Of a DNA stretch of 64,000 bases, positions 36,502 to 46,163 are shown one piece after another; within the stretch, counting starts at the first letter, position 1, and every line of letters starts with the position of its first letter. Below the pieces are notes generated by a model. The model worked only from the letters and a program-made list of their open reading frames with translations. It did no database searches and was not told where the DNA came from. Source of the DNA: Actinomycetota bacterium (GTDB lineage: Bacteria; Actinomycetota; Thermoleophilia; Solirubrobacterales; JACPNS01); NCBI GenBank assembly GCA_016213645.1, contig JACQZY010000010.1, positions 1 through 64,000 of the forward strand. The letters run 5' to 3'. Made by a program: the position numbers and the translations under genes.

Positions 36502-36538
36502 AAAAAGTCCTCATAGCTTTCGCGGTTCGCGCATTAGG

Positions 36539-36568
36539 TGACTGCGGTCTCATCCGAGGCCGCAGTCA
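36539..36568 (+). terminator. hairpin after pckG
   Basis: TGACTGCGGTCTC pairs with GAGGCCGCAGTCA (one T-G wobble) around ATCC: a 13-bp stem with a 4-base loop, about 40 bases after the pckG stop. No T-run follows. It probably ends the pckG transcript before the next gene. Confidence 0.65.
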
Positions 36569-36594
36569 TTCGAATGAAAAAGGAGATTGTTCCT

Positions 36595-37608
36595 ATGCGT
36601 GAACGATTGATTACAGGGCGTAAGGCTTGGTTCGGGATTGTGCGGGCGGCGCTGCTTGTTGTGGCCGCCATGGCATTGACAGCGGGCACTGCCCAGGCTG
36701 CAGCGGTTAGCGTGGAGTCCGGCGTCATGACCTACGTGACGGATTCCGGCGCCGACAACGAAATAGTCATTTCGGACTACGGCTCCGAGTATCTCATCAC
36801 CGACAGTGAGTCTGCGGCGACGACGGATGACCCAAACTGTTGGGCTGATTTCGGCGGAGTTTTGTGCGACGCAGCGAGTGTTGACTCCTTCTACGTCGAT
36901 AGCGCCGACGGAAACGATTCGATCGCTATGGCCAACTCATACCTCACCAAGCCAGTCGTGTTCAATGGCGGTGGTGGTAACGACAACATCACCGGTTCTG
37001 CCGGAAACGACACGCTCAACGGCGGAGCAGGCGATGACCTGTTGTCCGGTCGCGACGGAAACAACTCCCTCAACGGCAACGACGACAACGACACGCTTAG
37101 GGGCGGAAACAATGCCGACGATCTCAATGGCGGCACCGGCTTTGACACCGTCGACTACAGCTGGCGGACGGCGAATCTCAATCTCAACGCCGCCGACAAC
37201 CTCCCGTACGACGGAGCGGATGGGGAGGGTGACAACATCCGTTACTCGTCGGAGGTCATCAAGGCCGGATCCGGAAACGACGTCGTGATCGTCTCGCCGA
37301 GCGCGGTGCTCGGACAAACCTACGGTAACGGCGGAAATGACACGATTTACGGAAGTAACAACTCGTGGGACGAGTACATCTACGGCGGTGCCGGAACCGA
37401 CACGATCTACGGCAACAACGGTTCGGATCGGATCGACGGCGGAAGCGGCGCCGACACGATTTACGGCGGCACCCACTCAGACACCATCCTCATTCGCGAT
37501 TCGGAAAACGATGTCGTGGATTGTGGCGCCGGAAGCGAAACCGTGACGGCCGATCTTTTGCCTCTGGACTCGAACCTCACCGGCTGTGAGACCGTCAACA
37601 GAGGTTGA
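36595..37608 (+). CDS. secreted RTX-type calcium-binding repeat protein
   Basis: 337 residues from ATG 36595, chosen for AAAGGAG 10 bases upstream. The signal peptide has a basic start (MRERLITGRK) and ends near GTAQA-A. After a beta domain of about 85 residues there are two blocks of nonapeptide repeats of the GGxGxDxxx type: NGGGGNDNITGSAGNDTLNG, GAGDDLLSG, GGNNADDLNGG, and later GNGGNDTIYG, GGAGTDTIYG and GSGADTIYGG, which in RTX proteins form a Ca2+-filled parallel beta roll. No type I secretion gene is near; the N-terminal signal peptide indicates Sec export. It is probably a surface or matrix protein. It is similar in style to the 15616-18282 protein. Confidence 0.9.
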   Translation: MRERLITGRKAWFGIVRAALLVVAAMALTAGTAQAAAVSVESGVMTYVTDSGADNEIVISDYGSEYLITDSESAATTDDPNCWADFGGVLCDAASVDSFYVDSADGNDSIAMANSYLTKPVVFNGGGGNDNITGSAGNDTLNGGAGDDLLSGRDGNNSLNGNDDNDTLRGGNNADDLNGGTGFDTVDYSWRTANLNLNAADNLPYDGADGEGDNIRYSSEVIKAGSGNDVVIVSPSAVLGQTYGNGGNDTIYGSNNSWDEYIYGGAGTDTIYGNNGSDRIDGGSGADTIYGGTHSDTILIRDSENDVVDCGAGSETVTADLLPLDSNLTGCETVNRG

Positions 37609-37663
37609 CGAAGCATCTGCGATTTGCCGCATGCCACCAAAGTTTTTGGTTGCGGATCAAGCG

Positions 37664-37695
37664 AGCACCCGACCGTGTTTTTACGGTCGGGTGCT
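37664..37695 (+). terminator. hairpin after the RTX gene
   Basis: AGCACCCGACCGT pairs perfectly with ACGGTCGGGTGCT around GTTTTT, a 13-bp stem. The loop, not the tail, carries the T-run, so on the + strand it is a strong but atypical terminator. Confidence 0.7.
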
Positions 37696-37929
37696 TGTCG
37701 TTCGCGAATCCGCGGTGGTCACTGTCCGGCCCGCCGTCGTCCGTTCACCGTTTTGTCGAGTTCGCGGTAGGCGGCTTTCGCGGTACCTTCGAAGTGTGCG
37801 GCGTTAGTTCTTTAGTTCGCTGGCTCATATACTCGATGAATCGGTTCGGGAGTAGCAACGGTCTTGGCGGCTCTGCGCATGCTTGTTTTCCGGTCATGAA
37901 GAATCCTTTGCGTTAGGGGGCGCGGGGAA
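37696..37929. other. upstream region of the fused sigma factor gene
   Basis: 234 bases with no gene. This must contain the promoter of the sigma factor operon. The segment CTTTAGTTCGCTGGCTCATATACT (about 37811-37834; only parts are significant: GGCTCATATACT) has an AT-rich -10-like centre. The ribosome site before TTG 37930 is a G-rich run (TTAGGGGGCGCGGGG). Confidence 0.35.
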
Positions 37930-39207
37930 TTGAAACGCGATCAACTCGCTGTTTCCGCCGCTCGTTCAGCGAGTCGGCCGCAAACAAACGGTTCGGCCGT
38001 AGAACCACTACTGGCCGAACACGGCGCGGCAATCCTGAGCGTCGCACGGCGCAACAGCCGAAGTGCCGCCGATGCCGAAGACGCGTTTCAGCGTGCGTTC
38101 GAGAAACTGATCGCAAAAGCACCTTCGCTGACTGGCGATGAGTTGCTCGCGTGGATGTTGACCGTCGTACGCAATGAGGCGCTGATGATCGTGAGATCGC
38201 AGAACCGGCTCGCCGCTGAAGCCGTGGAAGAGCATCTCGCTTATACAGCCGATGAGTCACCGACCCCGGCCGAGCTCGTAGCGGATCGCGAAACGGTGCT
38301 GCACGGCCAGGACGCGCTAAGGCGTCTTCGGCCGGACCAACTGCGATGTCTACTGCTTCGGGCCGAGGGACTAAATTACGCTGCGATCCAGTCTGCAACG
38401 GGGTTCTCGTACGCGAAGGTCAATCGCTGTCTGAGCGAGGGACGCTCCGCGTTGCGTGAGGGCTACCAACGCATCAGCTCTGGTGCCGAGTGCCGACGTT
38501 TGCAGAATTCACTCTCGCTGATGGCCGACGGAATGCTTGAGTCTTCGCTTCGGCGAGAAGTCAAAGGGCATCTGCGTGGATGCGTCGCCTGTAGAGCCAC
38601 GCTTCGCGAATACCGTCTTGCGCCCAACAGGGTCGCGGTCGCGATGCCTCTTGCAATTCTTTCATCTGGCGCAGCCGGTGGTACGGGATCGCGGTTCGCA
38701 AGTGCCGCCCGTCAGGCCGCCGAGAACATCCAGACGGCTTGTAGTTCACTGCTAGACCGAATCGGCGGTATCGCGACGATTCACCAAGGTTTGGAAACTG
38801 CCGCCGTCAAGAAGGCCGTCGCGGTCGCCGCCGTCTCGGCCTCGCTTGTCGCGGGTGGGGTTGCCGCGGAGCATGCGGTCGATCTACCGGAACCCGCCGG
38901 CGAGACGAATCAGATCGGTGCCACCGGAATTGTCGGACACGAACTCAAAACCGATCTGCGGGAGACCGGTGGTTCCGGTCTGAGCGACTTGGCCGCCGAT
39001 GCCTCGGTGGGCGTGGATATTCCGCGCGAGCCGCGTGCCTCGGACCTGATCGGTGAAGGCGCGATGGTGCAGATTCCCGCTGACGCCGAACCCGGTTCGG
39101 TGCTTCGCGGCGATTCGGTCGACGGACCCGAAGCGTTTGCGGCCCCGCTTTCCGGTGACGCAGGTTCGGACGGATCGAGCGACCGCTCCGGAGAGCTGGC
39201 TCCTTAG
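37930..39207 (+). CDS. sigma-70 family factor fused to zf-HC2 zinc finger and a possible membrane anchor
   Basis: 425 residues from TTG 37930. Sigma region 2 at about 25-95 (DAEDAFQRAFEKLIAKAPS, AWMLTVVRNEALMIVR), region 4 at about 125-180 (LRRLRPDQLRCLLLRAEGLN, YAAIQSATGFSYAKVNRCLS). Then an anti-sigma-type zinc-binding motif: Cys188, His214, Cys218, Cys221 (GHLRGCVACRATL), as in zf-HC2 proteins. A hydrophobic, Ala/Val-rich segment (about 295-314) may span the membrane, followed by about 110 acidic Gly/Asp-rich residues. Sigma and anti-sigma elements thus sit on one polypeptide. The stop is 3 bases before the next gene, which strongly suggests an operon with the two secreted paralogs. Release by proteolysis or redox is a possible mechanism (inference). 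Confidence 0.88.
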   Translation: MKRDQLAVSAARSASRPQTNGSAVEPLLAEHGAAILSVARRNSRSAADAEDAFQRAFEKLIAKAPSLTGDELLAWMLTVVRNEALMIVRSQNRLAAEAVEEHLAYTADESPTPAELVADRETVLHGQDALRRLRPDQLRCLLLRAEGLNYAAIQSATGFSYAKVNRCLSEGRSALREGYQRISSGAECRRLQNSLSLMADGMLESSLRREVKGHLRGCVACRATLREYRLAPNRVAVAMPLAILSSGAAGGTGSRFASAARQAAENIQTACSSLLDRIGGIATIHQGLETAAVKKAVAVAAVSASLVAGGVAAEHAVDLPEPAGETNQIGATGIVGHELKTDLRETGGSGLSDLAADASVGVDIPREPRASDLIGEGAMVQIPADAEPGSVLRGDSVDGPEAFAAPLSGDAGSDGSSDRSGELAP

Positions 39208-39210
39208 CCA

Positions 39211-42096
39211 ATGAGCGAAATCGCCGCTAAATCGAAGGTCGCGTTAATAACGATCCTTGTGCTGATCGCGATTGTCGCGGTTTGCCCGTCCGCGCGCGCC
39301 GCCGAACGACTGGTTAGCGCGTGTAGTGAAGGCTTCATGTTTATGCCGGATCCATTCCTCGCCTCACAGCCCGAAGACGCGTGGCGATTCTCACCGATCT
39401 GCCGGGGCCCGATGATGTTGAGCACAGTCGATCCGGCAGGCAGTCGGTGGTCTAATTCGTGGCGTTTTCCGGTAACGCCGTTTGGTGCGAATCTTCGCTT
39501 TAAAGCCGTATCGTTCCGGCTGAGCGGCAGTGACGGAAGCGATGGCGGGGCGGGCAACCGCGTCCAGGGAGTCACTACTTGCGCCGCCGGCCAATGCAGT
39601 CCGCCCGTGCGTCCCTCGGGTCCCGACGTACTGACGCCGGAGCATCACGAATTGCGCGTTGACGACGGCACACTCGCCGAGAACACGGATGAATTTCGCG
39701 TTGTCGGGGCGTGTTCGGCTGTGGATGGGATGCCTGAACCGGCCGGGTGCGAACCTGGTCGCCCTCTCTATATCTGGGACTTGGCTTTTGTGCTCGAAGA
39801 CAACGAACCGCCAACGATCTCGAGGATCGATGACGGGGACGCCCCTTCCGCGACACCGCTAGTGGAGAACGGGTGGAATGGGATCGGAGACCACTTGATC
39901 ACGGTCAACGCCCAGGACGCCGGTCTCGGTGTGCACGATCTTCAATTCATGTTCAACGCCACTCTCGGCCAAAACGGCACGCGTTATTACCGCGATACGG
40001 GTTGCGGCGATCACGACCACTTGTTCGACGAACTCATCCGCTACTGCGAATTGTCAGCCGACGTGGCTTTCGTGTTCGGCTCCACAGCTTTCGGCGTTCA
40101 GCCTGGCGCAAACGTACTCAACGTCTCGGCGTTCGACGCAGCGGGAAACCAGTCGGCCGGCACCGATATTCACTTCAAGCTCGACCGCTCGCTTCCGGTC
40201 CCGGCGAAGCTTGCTGAGACAACATCGTTCCTGAACGGCTGGCAAGCCAACCCGGTCGTGAACCTGACGTGGAGCAACGGCCAGGACTCCTATGAGACGG
40301 CGACCAATTCGCCAGTCGTCCGTGCTACCGCGTGGGTGGTCAAGTACGGCAATATAAATGCGGGGTCGTCGGTGATAAAAACCGTTTCTGGCACGAACGT
40401 GGAGGCGATTAACGGGCTGCGTCTGCCGAGCGAGGGTCTGTGGCGCATTCGCTTTCGCGTATGGGACGAGGCGGGGAACGCAAGCGACCACCACGAGGTT
40501 CAAGTTGGCGTCGATTACACGGTTCCGGGCGCTCCGGAGATTACCTTGCCAAGCACGGTTGGAGGCGCAGAATTGGCTGCGGGATCTAAGGTCGAGTGGA
40601 CGCCTCCGCCGCTACCACCGGCCGGAATATGTGGATACGCGATGGCATTCGACCAGTCGCCGGCGGCGGACCCAGGGACCGAAATCGAGTATCCGGCCAG
40701 AGCTGCGTTCGGATTGATGCCGCGTTCGCTTCCTCACGGTGAGAACTTCGCGCACCTCCGCGCGATCAGCTGTGCAGGGGTCCCTGGTGAGATCGTTCAT
40801 GCTGCATTCGAAGTCGATTCGGAAGGTCCTGAGATCCGGACCACATCTCCCGCCGCCAGCGGCTGGTACGACCGCGAAAATCCGCTGGTCGCCGAGATTA
40901 GTGACGAGGTGGGCGCGCGGCTCGCGTTGGCGGTCGACGGCGGGCCGTCGGCGTGGTATGAAGGTTCTCGGGTGCCGATCTCGCTCGAAGATGGAATTCA
41001 CCAGATCACCCTCCTTGCGGAAGACGCTCGAGGAAATCGAACTCAGCGCACGTTGAAAGCCGAAAGTGACTCCTCTCCACCGCTCGCCGAGCTTGATCCG
41101 ATCGATTGGGCTGATCCCACGCTCGTGATAGCAAGAGTGCGCGACCGTGGCTCGGGGGTGGCGGCGGTGCTGTTTGAATATCGCCGCGTCGGCGAGGCCG
41201 ACTGGCGTGGTTTCGGCACGCCGACGTACGCGTCGCAAAACACATCGTCGTTGACGGTTGGGCTTCGATTTCCCGATGAAACGCTCGCCGACGGCGTTTA
41301 CGACCTGCGGGTGATTGCGTACGACGCGACTGGACAGCGAATAGTCACCGGAACACGTTCTGACGGTTCTCCCGCGACCCTAACGCTGCCGCTCCGTGCG
41401 CGGGCAAACATCCAGGCTGGCTTTGCGACGACGATCCGCGAACGCAAATGCAGGAGCCATGGAAAAGGCAAGAGATGTCGCCGGATAAAGAACACGACCG
41501 TCAAGCCGCGCCTAAAGGTCGGCTTCGGTGCCTCCGCTGTGCTCCAGGGCACGCTGCGGGATTCTGCCGGTACCGCCATTGATGGCGCAATGCTTAAGGT
41601 CTACGAGTCTGTTCTTGGCGGATCACGTCGCCTTACGGCGACTGTTTCGTCGGATCGTGAAGGTGCTTTCAGTCTCCGGCTGATGGCTGGTCCATCACGC
41701 AGGGTCACCATTCACTTTGATGGCTCGGAGACGGTTGCACCGGTTGAAACGGAGGTGAAACTGTTGGCCGAAGGCAAGGTGGTGTTTGACCGGTACCCGG
41801 CGCGCGTACGCGGTGGCACTTTGACCACACTTGGCGGTCGTGTGTTCTCGCCCGGAGTCTCGATTCCGCAGGACCTTAACGTTGAATTTCAGTATTTTGC
41901 CCGCGGCTCATGGCAACAACTTTTGGTTGCCGGCATGGTGGCTGACATAAACGGTGAGTTTGTCGCCAAAGTGAGATTCCCGGTTACACGACGAAGTGTC
42001 GTTTACCGAATGCGAGCGCGTGTGCCATCGCCACAATCGGGCTGGCCGTATGAAGCCGGCGTTTCGACAGCTCACACGCTGGTGGTAACTCGATGA
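39211..42096 (+). CDS. large secreted Ig-like multidomain protein (paralog A)
   Basis: 961 residues. Signal peptide VALITILVLIAIVAVCPSARA-A. It consists of repeated extracellular beta domains: an N-terminal domain with several Cys (about 35-200), then Ig-like units starting DNEPPTISRIDDG, DRSLPVPAKLAE, DYTVPGAPEITLPS and DSEGPEIRTTSP, each with an AxDxAGN-type turn (SAFDAAGNQ, VWDEAGNAS, AEDARGNRT). The last 220 residues include a carboxypeptidase-regulatory-like unit (LQGTLRDSAGTAIDGAMLKV). A conserved ICGYAMAFD and FAHLRAISC are shared with the next gene. It starts 3 bases after the sigma factor gene and overlaps the next start by 4 bases. It is probably a cell-wall or surface protein; the ligand is unknown. 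Confidence 0.8.
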   Translation: MSEIAAKSKVALITILVLIAIVAVCPSARAAERLVSACSEGFMFMPDPFLASQPEDAWRFSPICRGPMMLSTVDPAGSRWSNSWRFPVTPFGANLRFKAVSFRLSGSDGSDGGAGNRVQGVTTCAAGQCSPPVRPSGPDVLTPEHHELRVDDGTLAENTDEFRVVGACSAVDGMPEPAGCEPGRPLYIWDLAFVLEDNEPPTISRIDDGDAPSATPLVENGWNGIGDHLITVNAQDAGLGVHDLQFMFNATLGQNGTRYYRDTGCGDHDHLFDELIRYCELSADVAFVFGSTAFGVQPGANVLNVSAFDAAGNQSAGTDIHFKLDRSLPVPAKLAETTSFLNGWQANPVVNLTWSNGQDSYETATNSPVVRATAWVVKYGNINAGSSVIKTVSGTNVEAINGLRLPSEGLWRIRFRVWDEAGNASDHHEVQVGVDYTVPGAPEITLPSTVGGAELAAGSKVEWTPPPLPPAGICGYAMAFDQSPAADPGTEIEYPARAAFGLMPRSLPHGENFAHLRAISCAGVPGEIVHAAFEVDSEGPEIRTTSPAASGWYDRENPLVAEISDEVGARLALAVDGGPSAWYEGSRVPISLEDGIHQITLLAEDARGNRTQRTLKAESDSSPPLAELDPIDWADPTLVIARVRDRGSGVAAVLFEYRRVGEADWRGFGTPTYASQNTSSLTVGLRFPDETLADGVYDLRVIAYDATGQRIVTGTRSDGSPATLTLPLRARANIQAGFATTIRERKCRSHGKGKRCRRIKNTTVKPRLKVGFGASAVLQGTLRDSAGTAIDGAMLKVYESVLGGSRRLTATVSSDREGAFSLRLMAGPSRRVTIHFDGSETVAPVETEVKLLAEGKVVFDRYPARVRGGTLTTLGGRVFSPGVSIPQDLNVEFQYFARGSWQQLLVAGMVADINGEFVAKVRFPVTRRSVVYRMRARVPSPQSGWPYEAGVSTAHTLVVTR

Positions 42097-44945
42097 GGCG
42101 GAAGGAGTCGGTGATACGCGGGGTTTTTGCGATCACCTTCGTCGTGCTTTCGGCTTTTGGCATGATCAATGCACCGATTGCCGCTGGACAGCAGATCGAA
42201 CTCCGCAGCTGTCACGAGGGCGCGATCGAACTGGCCGAAACGAGCTTCGGTTGGAATCCGTATGCATCCGACGGTCCGATCCGGCCGATTCGCGCCTGTC
42301 CGCGGGAGTTGGGCTTCGACGTGGTCGAGCCGGTCAGATACGGCATTGGTTCTAAGCTCCAGTTTGACGCCGGTTTGCAACAGATAAGCAACATCCGGCT
42401 GACGGTCGCCGCGGGCGAGACGGTTGCAGGCCTGGCATATCAGATTGTGTCCTGCGAGCGTGGGGTGTGCCTTCCGCTGCGTCGCATCGCACCGCGCGTT
42501 GCCGGCGACAGTGAAGAGCAGATTTCAATGCCGCACAGCGGTGAAATCGGCATTTTGGAGGTACGCGCAACCTGCGAGATCTCCGAATGCCTGCCGGGTC
42601 GCGGTCTGCGCTTTAACAACGTTGAGCTTGATGTCGTCGACGATCAGGGGCCGTTAACCAGCGTCTACCGATATCCGAATCTGCCGTGGGTCAAGCCGAG
42701 CAACGTGATGCTGGACATAACAGTGCGTGATCCCGGCGTCGGTCTGGGCCGGGGTGGGGCGTATCTGGACGCACAATCAAACCGATTCTGGGATTTCTAC
42801 GGTTGTGACGAGTCCGCCGCCCCGGTTGTGTTTCTGCCGCTTAGGGTGCACTGCGACCTGGGCGGCAAACAGTCCTTCACCGGTCTGCTCGATCTACGGC
42901 AGGCGGCTGACGGTGAGCACTCCGTCGTCTTTGAGGCAAAGGACGCGGCCGGCAACGTCGCGCCGCCGTCGGTAGTGAAATTCAAAATTGACGGTACACC
43001 CCCAGAGGCTCCGGCAAATCTGACTGCCGATGCGCTAAACGCCGACGGCTGGACGAGAGACGACGTAACAATTATCCGCTGGACAAACGTCGCTCCGACG
43101 AGGGATTCGGAGTCGAATGCCGGCATAGCAAGGGTGTTTGTCGACTGGCGACCGCGGTCAGGGCAGGCGAATGACCCACCGGCCCGCCAAGGGGGCATCG
43201 GCGGGCCGAACGGTGATTGGGGAGGCCCGTACATAATCCCGGGGGAGGGCTTGTGGGATCTGTACTTCTGGGTCGAAGACAAGGCCGGAAATCCAAGCTC
43301 TAAGATAAAAATCGCTGTTGGTCGCGACGTCGACGCGCCTCCGTCTCCTCAGCTTGACGCAGTACCGTGGCTCAATCGCTCGGCGCTTCAATTCGGTCGC
43401 TATTTGACGGGCACCCAGCCAACAGGTGCGGACATCGAGTCCGGGATCTGTGGCTATTCGACATCCTTCGACGCCACACCGGACGCGGTGCCGCCTCCGA
43501 CTGCCAATTCAAGGGGTTTACTTGCGGCGGTGCGATTGCCGGCTGACTTGCCGGTTGGCGACTCATTTGCGCACCTTCGCGCCATCTCTTGCAGCGGTGT
43601 CGCGTCCTCGGTCGCCTCCGTCGGGGTCCGTGTGGATGACCGACCGCCGTTTGTTCGGATTTCGGAAAGCGGTCGTGCCGGCTGGATGAACCGGCCGACG
43701 GGAGTGTCGATTTCAGCCGCCGACGACCGCTCGGGCGTAAATGAACTTCATTGGCGCCTTGGGTCGGAATCGACAGTCTCCAGCGCGGGCGAAAGCGCCG
43801 TCGTAACATTTGGCGAGGGCCGCCATCGCCTGCGGTATTGGGCAACCGACCGTGCCGGCAACGAGTCAGATCCCGAAACTAGAGACTTCTACGTCGACCT
43901 CACGCCGCCAGACGGGCGGTTCGCGTCGATCGATTTCGCTCGCCCAGGCCACGTCGTGGCGGCTGTCACCGATTCGATGTCCGGGATTGACACTGCGCAG
44001 ATTCAGTATCGAAGGATCGACATCGAGGGCGACGACTGGCACGGGTTGCCGACGTCCGCAACAGCAAATCCTGCTCGGGAGTCGAGTTTGTGGCTTGCTG
44101 CCGACATGCCCGATTCGCGCTTGGCAAACGGCATCTACGCCCTTCGGGTGCTTTCGTCGGATCGCGCCGGCAACTCCGTTGCGTTCGACACTAACGCCGA
44201 ACACGAGCCGATGCGGATGACGCTGCCACTGCGCGAACGCTGGTCGGTGACCGCAGGAACGAGTGACGTCGTGCCGGCTGTGTGCGCCCGAAAGCGGCGC
44301 GATCGTCGTTCGCAATGCGTTCGCGCCAGGGGCGGTGCTGACGCAAAAACGGTGAGGCTCGTCAACTTCTCAAATGCCGTGATGCTCACCGGCGACCTTC
44401 GAGGCGCGGCTGGTGAACCCCGCCCAGGGGTGCCACTGAAAGTTTTTGCCACAGTCAAGGGATTTCCGGCCGAACCGCTTGCCGACGTGATCACGGACAG
44501 CGACGGCCGTTATGAGCTCAAGCTTCCGCGGGGCCCATCGCGCCGACTCACCGTTGTGTATGAGGGCGACGATCGCACCATGGCCGCGCGTGCCAATGCC
44601 GACCTGCGAGTGCGGTCGGCGGCGACCCTTTCTGCGAGCACAACCGCGCCAAGTGTTGGTAAACGTGTTTTTTTCACCGGCAGGCTTGCGGGCGGCGACA
44701 GATGGCTGTCCGACGTCGGCAAGCTCATCGAGTTGCAGTTCAAAAACGGCGACGTGTGGCAGCCGGGTATCGGTAGTGTCTGGACGCTCCCGGGCCAAAA
44801 CGGCCGGTTCAGCGCTTCTTACAAATTCCGCGCGGTTCGCAGGCGGAACGCCCGCATCAAGATTCGCGCGCTGATTCGCCACGAGGCGGCTTGGCCGTTT
44901 GAAGACGGAGTTTCGAACACCTTGATCGTGGCGATAAGGCACTGA
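42093..44945 (+). CDS. large secreted Ig-like multidomain protein (paralog B)
   Basis: 950 residues, beginning in the ATGA overlap with paralog A. Signal peptide near GVFAITFVVLSAFGMINAPIA. Domain order follows paralog A: N-terminal Cys-rich domain, Ig-like units (DDQGPLTSVYRYP, DGTPPEAPANLTA, DVDAPPSPQLDAVP, DDRPPFVRISESG, DLTPPDGRFASID), then a C-terminal regulatory-like domain (LTGDLRGAAGEPRPGVPLKV). Shared motifs are ICGYSTSFD and FAHLRAISC. The two proteins are therefore tandem duplicates that have diverged widely. The gene ends the sigma operon; no later gene is in the same close spacing. Confidence 0.8.
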   Translation: MRRKESVIRGVFAITFVVLSAFGMINAPIAAGQQIELRSCHEGAIELAETSFGWNPYASDGPIRPIRACPRELGFDVVEPVRYGIGSKLQFDAGLQQISNIRLTVAAGETVAGLAYQIVSCERGVCLPLRRIAPRVAGDSEEQISMPHSGEIGILEVRATCEISECLPGRGLRFNNVELDVVDDQGPLTSVYRYPNLPWVKPSNVMLDITVRDPGVGLGRGGAYLDAQSNRFWDFYGCDESAAPVVFLPLRVHCDLGGKQSFTGLLDLRQAADGEHSVVFEAKDAAGNVAPPSVVKFKIDGTPPEAPANLTADALNADGWTRDDVTIIRWTNVAPTRDSESNAGIARVFVDWRPRSGQANDPPARQGGIGGPNGDWGGPYIIPGEGLWDLYFWVEDKAGNPSSKIKIAVGRDVDAPPSPQLDAVPWLNRSALQFGRYLTGTQPTGADIESGICGYSTSFDATPDAVPPPTANSRGLLAAVRLPADLPVGDSFAHLRAISCSGVASSVASVGVRVDDRPPFVRISESGRAGWMNRPTGVSISAADDRSGVNELHWRLGSESTVSSAGESAVVTFGEGRHRLRYWATDRAGNESDPETRDFYVDLTPPDGRFASIDFARPGHVVAAVTDSMSGIDTAQIQYRRIDIEGDDWHGLPTSATANPARESSLWLAADMPDSRLANGIYALRVLSSDRAGNSVAFDTNAEHEPMRMTLPLRERWSVTAGTSDVVPAVCARKRRDRRSQCVRARGGADAKTVRLVNFSNAVMLTGDLRGAAGEPRPGVPLKVFATVKGFPAEPLADVITDSDGRYELKLPRGPSRRLTVVYEGDDRTMAARANADLRVRSAATLSASTTAPSVGKRVFFTGRLAGGDRWLSDVGKLIELQFKNGDVWQPGIGSVWTLPGQNGRFSASYKFRAVRRRNARIKIRALIRHEAAWPFEDGVSNTLIVAIRH

Positions 44946-45086
44946 AAGTCCGGCGCGACAAGTTCTGCGCCCCTTGCATTGAGTGTCAGTAGAAGACAAA
45001 GCGCGGCAACGCTTGGACGAATGCCCATTGTGTGCCCGGTCCCATCTATGCGCCGACACAAAGCCGATCACGCGTACGCTTCGCCG

Positions 45087-46163
45087 ATGAACTCCTCACA
45101 GACCACTTCACTCACATTCACAAAAACGCTGCCGCTCGCACTCGCCGCGATTGCGTTTGTCCTCGCCGTCATCGCCCCCACCGCCTCCGCCCAAGCCACC
45201 CGCACCTGGGTCTCCGGCACCGGCGACGATGTCAATCCATGCTCCCGTACCGCCCCGTGCAAGACCTTCGCCGGGGCGATCTCTAAAACCGCCGAGGGCG
45301 GCGAAATCAACGCCATCGACTCTGGCGGATACGGTGCCGTCACGATTTCCAAGGCGATCACGATTGATGGTCTGGGGGCTCAGTCCTCGATCCTGAACTC
45401 CGGTGCCAATGGTGTGATCGTCAACGCCGGCGCCGACGACGATGTGATTCTGCGCAACCTCGAGATCGTCGGCTCGGGAGTGGCGGCGGCTTGCCCCTGG
45501 ACCGGACTCAGCGGGATCAGGGTCTTGGCCGCGCGCACGCTGCGCGTGGAAAACGTCACGATCAACAATCAGTCGATCGGTGTGGAGGTGGTTGCCTCCG
45601 GTACAAACCCGGACATCTTCTTCGACATCCTGCTGAACAACGTCAACATCAGCAACACCTGCAATTACGGCATCAAGTCCGTCCCGGCGGCGGGGCATCC
45701 CGTGCGGATGGCTTTGAACAACAACACGATCAGCAACGCCAACACCGCCTTTCACGCGGCGGCCGGCACGGAAGCGTGGGTGACCGGCAGCAACTTCTTT
45801 CTCAACAACCTCGGACTGGACACCAGCGAGGGCGGCTTGATTCACAGCCTCGGCGGCAACCAAGTGGTCGGCAACGCGACCAACGGCGCGTTCACCGATC
45901 TCGTTGACGGCGACCCAAGCTCGCCGCCTGCGGCTCCCTCACCGCCTGCAACCGCCACCACATACTGCGTGGTGCCCAAACTCAAGGGCAAAACCCGCGC
46001 CGCGGCTTCGGCGTCGCTCACCGCCGGCAATTGCGCTTTGGGCAACGTCCGGTCCGTCAAGGTCAGCCGGAAATCCCAGCGTAAAAAGGTGCTTTCGCAG
46101 ACAGTTCCGGCCGGCGTGGAGGCGAAAGCCGGTACCAAGGTCGGCGTATTAATCGGCAAATAG
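45087..46163 (+). CDS. secreted right-handed beta-helix protein with C-terminal PASTA domain
   Basis: 358 residues from ATG 45087. Signal peptide LPLALAAIAFVLAVIAPTASA-Q. The start of the mature protein (TWVSGTGDDVNPCSRTAPCKTFAGAI, only partly conserved) is the typical entry of pectate-lyase-like beta-helix proteins. Regular strands follow (GGYGAVTISKAITIDGLGA, ILRNLEIVGSG, RTLRVENVTINN, NNNTISNANTAF). After a Pro-rich linker (PPAAPSPPATATT) a PASTA domain (CVVPKLKGKTRAAASASL ... AGTKVGVLIG) ends the protein; PASTA units often bind peptidoglycan or glycopeptides. No catalytic residues are assigned. A hairpin (46174-46199) follows it. Confidence 0.85.
   Translation: MNSSQTTSLTFTKTLPLALAAIAFVLAVIAPTASAQATRTWVSGTGDDVNPCSRTAPCKTFAGAISKTAEGGEINAIDSGGYGAVTISKAITIDGLGAQSSILNSGANGVIVNAGADDDVILRNLEIVGSGVAAACPWTGLSGIRVLAARTLRVENVTINNQSIGVEVVASGTNPDIFFDILLNNVNISNTCNYGIKSVPAAGHPVRMALNNNTISNANTAFHAAAGTEAWVTGSNFFLNNLGLDTSEGGLIHSLGGNQVVGNATNGAFTDLVDGDPSSPPAAPSPPATATTYCVVPKLKGKTRAAASASLTAGNCALGNVRSVKVSRKSQRKKVLSQTVPAGVEAKAGTKVGVLIGK

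Follow-up and report, generated by a model that had tools for sequence, protein, structure and literature searches.

We describe an operon at positions 37930-44945 of a 64,000-nucleotide stretch of DNA (the window; assembly GCA_016213645.1, contig JACQZY010000010.1) from an actinobacterium of the class Thermoleophilia. Its first gene encodes a 425-residue protein in which an extracytoplasmic function (ECF) sigma factor is fused to a zinc anti-sigma domain, a predicted transmembrane segment and a disordered tail, and two large secreted paralogs, A and B, follow. We regard it as probable, though well short of certain, that this operon specifies a membrane-tethered, self-inhibited ECF sigma factor that is freed by regulated proteolysis, with the tail and the co-made secreted protein acting as the outside sensor. 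Thermoleophilia are common soil and freshwater actinobacteria, and to our knowledge almost no genetics has been done in them.

Domain architecture of the fusion protein

The fusion gene (37930-39207, on the plus strand like all features of the operon) begins with a TTG codon. Sigma region 2 (residues 28-93; 38011-38208) matched Pfam PF04542 Sigma70_r2 above its cut-off (E 4.9e-10). Region 4 (residues 127-175; 38308-38454) scored slightly under the cut-off of PF08281 Sigma70_r4_2 (20.9 against 25.7 bits) and was modeled as helices by AlphaFold2 (AF2) with a predicted local distance difference test (pLDDT) value >90. Regions 2 and 4 without region 3 are the arrangement of an ECF sigma factor, and the NCBIfam sigma70-ECF model matched the protein above its cut-off. 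The zinc anti-sigma domain that follows, C188-x25-HxxxCxxC (residues 188-222; 38491-38595), matched PF13490 zf-HC2 above cut-off (E 1.2e-5). Its ligands C188, H214, C218 and C221 are intact in the window fusion and invariant in alignments of 33 and of 44 sequences, down to 25% identity; the zinc site is therefore under strong selection. The domain match, the four invariant ligands and the AF2 helices assign it to the class I zinc anti-sigma (ZAS) domains.

The AF2 model, built with 44 sequences, reached pLDDT >90 for sigma2, sigma4 and a three-helix anti-sigma bundle. A fourth anti-sigma-like helix (residues 254-285; 38689-38784) was predicted with moderate confidence (pLDDT about 62-83). Structure prediction of residues 185-320 had been proposed as a check on the architecture, and it returned the anti-sigma helices, helix 254-285 and a transmembrane helix, the last with pLDDT near 50. 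Foldseek matched the model to ECF sigma factors and to chains of sigma/anti-sigma complexes, including sigma4/RslA and SigW/RsiW.

The predicted single transmembrane segment (residues 296-314; 38815-38871), with KK on its N-terminal side, had a mean Kyte-Doolittle hydropathy of 1.75. A corresponding segment recurred in 65 complete fusions, where its median hydropathy was 1.69 vs 0.76 for the most hydrophobic window of the cytosolic core, and it lay a median of 70 residues (quartiles 62-73) past the last zinc ligand. From hydropathy and recurrence, the segment likely crosses the membrane and leaves the tail outside the cell. The predicted extracytoplasmic tail (residues 317-425; 38878-39204) spans about 110 residues, is disordered in the model (pLDDT 40-54) and is unconserved in alignment until its last residues, ELAP (39193-39204).

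Coordinates, Pfam and NCBIfam matches and hydropathy thus agree with a sequence-only reading of the window that preceded our analysis, which had described sigma regions 2 and 4, a zf-HC2 motif and a hydrophobic segment in one 425-residue protein. That reading also called the tail acidic, which holds for the window (21 D/E vs 6 K/R) but not as a family trait, the median net charge being 0 over the 65 fusions. Further loci in the window's own genome, and most relatives, also encode the fusion in a single frame. With dozens of such relatives, a missed stop, a frameshift, a sequencing error or chance is ruled out as its origin.

Two secreted paralogs follow the fusion gene

The fusion gene ends in TAG (39205-39207), and after a gap of 3 bases gene A starts with ATG at 39211. 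Gene A (39211-42096) encodes 961 amino acids (aa) and gene B (42093-44945) 950 aa, with the start of B overlapping the stop of A (ATGA). Both products carry signal peptides and, by Pfam and NCBIfam, immunoglobulin (Ig)-like beta-sandwich domains, and they are paralogs (25% identity, E 2.4e-75). The gap, the overlap and the paralogy are all as first read from the DNA. Protein A is a chain of such domains, for which Foldseek returned generic multi-Ig matches alone, with low TM-scores. The C-terminal GWPYExGxS and N-terminal GTYxVxxC parts of the secreted partners had no strong Pfam match.

A recurring tag at the end of the tails

Tails of the family vary in both length and sequence, and conservation is confined to their end. 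Thirty-one of 64 complete fusions end in EF(G/A/S/D/L)P-COOH (shuffled tails gave 0.008 on average), and a looser form of the tag fits 48 of the 64 where 0.44 would be expected; because the tag-bearing sequences are related, these counts do not represent independent events. Within the tails, 78 of 106 phenylalanines are preceded by E, and internal copies of the tag are enriched about seven-fold (26 vs 3.6 expected). At the DNA level, the pattern EFGP-stop occurred 28 times in 61 genomes of the order, compared with 4 times for its reverse, and in 17 of the 28 cases it closes a sigma fusion. Fusions of the Miltoncostaeales-like family end in LEFGP, and divergent fusions of other types beside the same secreted family also have EFGP-like ends. 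The tag is not a general actinobacterial C-terminus, as outside the class EFGP-stop was found 12 times and the reversed control 15 times. The recurrence of one end tag across fusions suggests a shared way of activation.

Two membrane proteins without a Pfam domain likewise have disordered tails ending in EFGP (L182:1504-2250 and L177:1504-2364, both on the minus strand); the first overlaps a gene that by eye looks TcpC-like (conjugation).

Distribution and pairing in Thermoleophilia

At strict cut-offs, a homolog of the sigma protein was present in 34 of 41 near relatives and in 45 of 150 genomes of the class, and in a sample of the phylum every match at 1e-16 fell inside Thermoleophilia. A second, named collection of 80 loci, nearly all titled Thermoleophilia or unclassified actinobacterial metagenome-assembled genomes (MAGs), gave the same picture. 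Judged by these homology searches, the fusion family is ancient within Thermoleophilia and was found in that class only. Genomes outside the genus normally have a single copy. Four MAG records titled Bifidobacterium breve (L110, L112, L130, L153) carry the Thermoleophilia-type gene and are probably mislabelled.

Pairing was scored in 61 assessable loci, namely complete fusions with enough downstream sequence. The secreted family lies directly downstream in 28 of them, with a 4-base overlap in 21. It is present in 59 of the 61 genomes of the order, often apart from the window-type fusion; there it frequently stands behind another, very divergent sigma/transmembrane fusion, and sometimes alone. 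A hydrophobic segment in 65 fusions together with a gene order conserved in relatives is the opposite of the outcome named beforehand as weakening a tethered sigma factor, and both results support the proposal that a self-inhibited, tethered factor is encoded with secreted proteins. In the literature searched, of which coverage was partial, we found no description of the class-wide pairing, the cassette expansion or the C-terminal tag.

Some homologs (L073, L074, L076, L077, L078) stop just past sigma region 4, without anti-sigma domain, transmembrane segment or tail, and some of these sigma-only species have instead a second, divergent fusion with an EFGP tail. A small secreted or membrane protein with a RRHLTYANVxATLALF-like start was often seen just past the secreted partner (L203, L206, L209, L211, L213, L214, L215).

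Cassettes within the genome and the genus

The window's own genome (2.4 Mb, 28 contigs) holds five fusion cassettes, provided that halves at the edges of contigs C16 and C28 form one gene, which we infer from their adjoining residue ranges (11-215 and 217-318). The order sigma-A-B is also found on C1, C26 and C28; on C26 the contig ends within B. The cassette on C24 consists of the sigma gene and one member of the secreted family, and a large secreted protein of another kind comes next; in cassettes of this type (L009_9, L045_3, L059_5, L060_6) what follows is a second conserved secreted family of 1045-1142 aa.

In trees, the sigma proteins of the genus split into two old clades. Within the expanded clade, to which the window belongs, A proteins (10 rows, support 100/97) and B proteins (9 rows, 99/97) formed separate clades. 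As A and B are reciprocally monophyletic across the genus, the sigma-A-B unit is older than the divergence of the species, and duplication copied it whole. In this clade the terminal branches of A and B measured 1.0-2.0, about twice the 0.4-1.0 of the sigma proteins, indicating that the secreted partners evolve fast; several A, B and sigma branches are long, and the branching order inside the clades is unresolved.

At one locus (L041), the sigma gene has A- and B-type secreted genes on both sides, and an rpoB-like gene adjoins the cassette, as in the window; this looks like a tandem cassette at the same site. Next to the window operon are two further genes for secreted proteins, one with RTX-type calcium repeats (36538-37608) and one beta-helix-like with a weak PASTA match (44979-46163). 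Neither was retained as a cassette part, since both are missing beside the paralogous cassettes.

Promoters and regulation

Autoregulation of the operon had been raised as a possibility and found no support. No shared dyad, motif or ECF-like promoter was detected upstream of the sigma genes of the expanded subfamily, and a scan of 37560-37960 revealed neither a sigma-70-type promoter nor a terminator. The sister clade has a housekeeping-type promoter, TTGNNN-N17-TATACA, upstream in 5/5 members (L009, L045, L058, L059, L060), and its conservation argues against autoregulation as a general rule. Behind this promoter lies a conserved leader, about 110 bases long, in which two hairpins are predicted and some of the changes among the five sequences are compensatory. 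The leader could be a cis-acting RNA; it had no Rfam match, and no known RNA element in Rfam was found in the window or in seven loci.

Proposed mechanism and alternatives

The reading we favor, a tethered sigma factor released by proteolysis, proceeds from the observed domains, conservation, cassette inheritance and tag to a predicted topology and to putative cis inhibition, proteolysis, partner role and target genes. The fused class I zinc anti-sigma domain would keep the N-terminal sigma domain inactive in cis, and the single membrane helix would place the disordered tail outside the cell, where its tagged end (EF(G/A)P across most of Thermoleophilia and x-LAP in the window's clade) may serve as a handle. 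The tail would be cut by a site-1 protease, perhaps a tail-specific one of the S41/PDZ type, and an M50 site-2 protease would then release the cytoplasmic part. The co-translated A and B would be the cognate envelope component, either monitored for their state or shielding the tail. The genome encodes one S41 protease with a PDZ-like stretch, and M50 homologs are present. We would go further only tentatively, to the proposal that EF-x-P-COOH is a class-wide extracytoplasmic tag on the tails of divergent fusions and a few other membrane proteins, that a single common reader in the envelope, either a scaffold or a tail-specific protease, uses it to trigger sigma release, and that the co-translated secreted proteins set the timing of tail exposure.

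Several observations weigh against this reading. The hydrophobic segment is rich in Ala and Gly and of modest strength, and its positive-inside bias is weak (K/R richer on the N side in 29 and on the C side in 17 of the 65 fusions). About half of the loci lack an adjacent secreted partner and often keep the tag, so partner and tail need not interact. Cassettes of the genus have drifted from EFxP to LAP, the ELAP of the window being a variant of the expanded clade. Finally, candidate S41 and M50 proteases are only a prerequisite for such a release, and since both kinds are widespread, their presence is weak evidence.

The tag might instead belong mainly to the DNA, with GGNGAG before ATGA serving the overlapping secreted gene as its Shine-Dalgarno sequence and with a tail devoid of function. 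Overlapping loci often read GGGGAGTTCGGACCATGA, which places a good ribosome site 8 bases ahead of the start, and this role very likely contributes to the tag in such loci, explaining part of it. We nevertheless reject it as the full explanation and consider a functionless tail unlikely. Twelve fusions without an adjacent partner gene, often with TAG stops, still end in EF(A/G)P, with an identity of 1.0 at three of the last four positions vs 0.20 over the preceding 36; these twelve were selected for the motif, so that positions can be compared but counts cannot. The internal copies of the motif also speak against a tag of purely DNA-level origin. A cytoplasmic signal is an equally improbable alternative, in which the anti-sigma domain would sense redox state or zinc, membrane segment and tail would provide location only, and the secreted proteins would be co-expressed cargo. 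Zinc anti-sigma domains of the RsrA type can sense redox, and the modest hydrophobicity of the segment fits such a role, but without envelope input it is difficult to account for a recurrent transmembrane-like segment with a conserved tag beyond it. For anti-sigma factors bound to the membrane, it has also been argued that the zinc site can have a structural role (PMC7406223).

A further possibility, which we hold to be rather doubtful and which is a sub-version of the proteolytic release model, so that confidence in the two overlaps, is that the tag is a docking peptide. The co-encoded secreted protein would bind it and shield the fusion from proteolysis until its own ligand binds, much as the signalling domain of the envelope protein FoxA protects the anti-sigma factor FoxR (PMC11637429). 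Tight co-translation of fusion and partner would suit docking, as would the fact that one secreted family pairs with several highly divergent types of fusion. Yet the tag persists where the partner is not adjacent and occurs on the two Pfam-less membrane proteins, which tips the balance somewhat from docking towards a common reader, for which the lone S41 protease is a candidate.

Comparison with known systems

The operon suggests a large set of envelope-to-transcription switches that is specific to the lineage and common to Solirubrobacterales and Miltoncostaeales, and the class-wide EF-x-P tag offers a concrete, testable peptide. If the tag is the recognition site of a protease or partner, activation of single-chain sigma/anti-sigma fusions, in actinobacteria so far a proposal with few tests behind it, could be probed with a short peptide.

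ECF factors are usually inhibited by a separate zf-HC2 protein. The view that the fusion itself is unusual was not borne out, as sigma/anti-sigma/transmembrane fusions are known in ECF48, ECF52, ECF53 and IutY, and the fusion alone is therefore not new. ECF48 and ECF53 of Actinobacteria, compared here by description, resemble the window protein with its predicted span in having a C-terminal zinc anti-sigma domain and one or two transmembrane helices, whereas the window family was found in Thermoleophilia only; proteolytic activation is expected for ECF48, ECF52 and ECF53 (PMC8999054). The surface proteins of the OmpL47/SiiE type resemble A and B as strings of bacterial Ig-like beta sandwiches, a likeness at the domain level only.

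IutY (ECF243) of Pseudomonas putida is likewise a single-chain sigma/anti-sigma protein, with one transmembrane segment, as predicted for the window protein, and an envelope partner, and it is cut by Prc and then RseP (PMC5411451). It differs in that its anti-sigma domain is periplasmic and its partner is an outer-membrane receptor, while the zinc anti-sigma domain of the window protein is predicted on the sigma side of the membrane. ECF52 (SCO4117 of Streptomyces coelicolor) shares the succession of ECF sigma factor, zf-HC2 domain, transmembrane segment and long low-complexity extracytoplasmic tail, the last two being predicted in the window protein, and its activation by proteolysis has been proposed (PMC5826349, PMC8999054). 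In ECF52 a proline-rich region leads to a fused carbohydrate-binding domain; no such domain was found by Pfam or NCBIfam in the window tail, which AF2 predicts to be disordered. In place of that domain, the window fusion is followed by separate secreted Ig-like proteins, and the tails of its family, unlike that of ECF52, end in a tag of the EF-x-P type.

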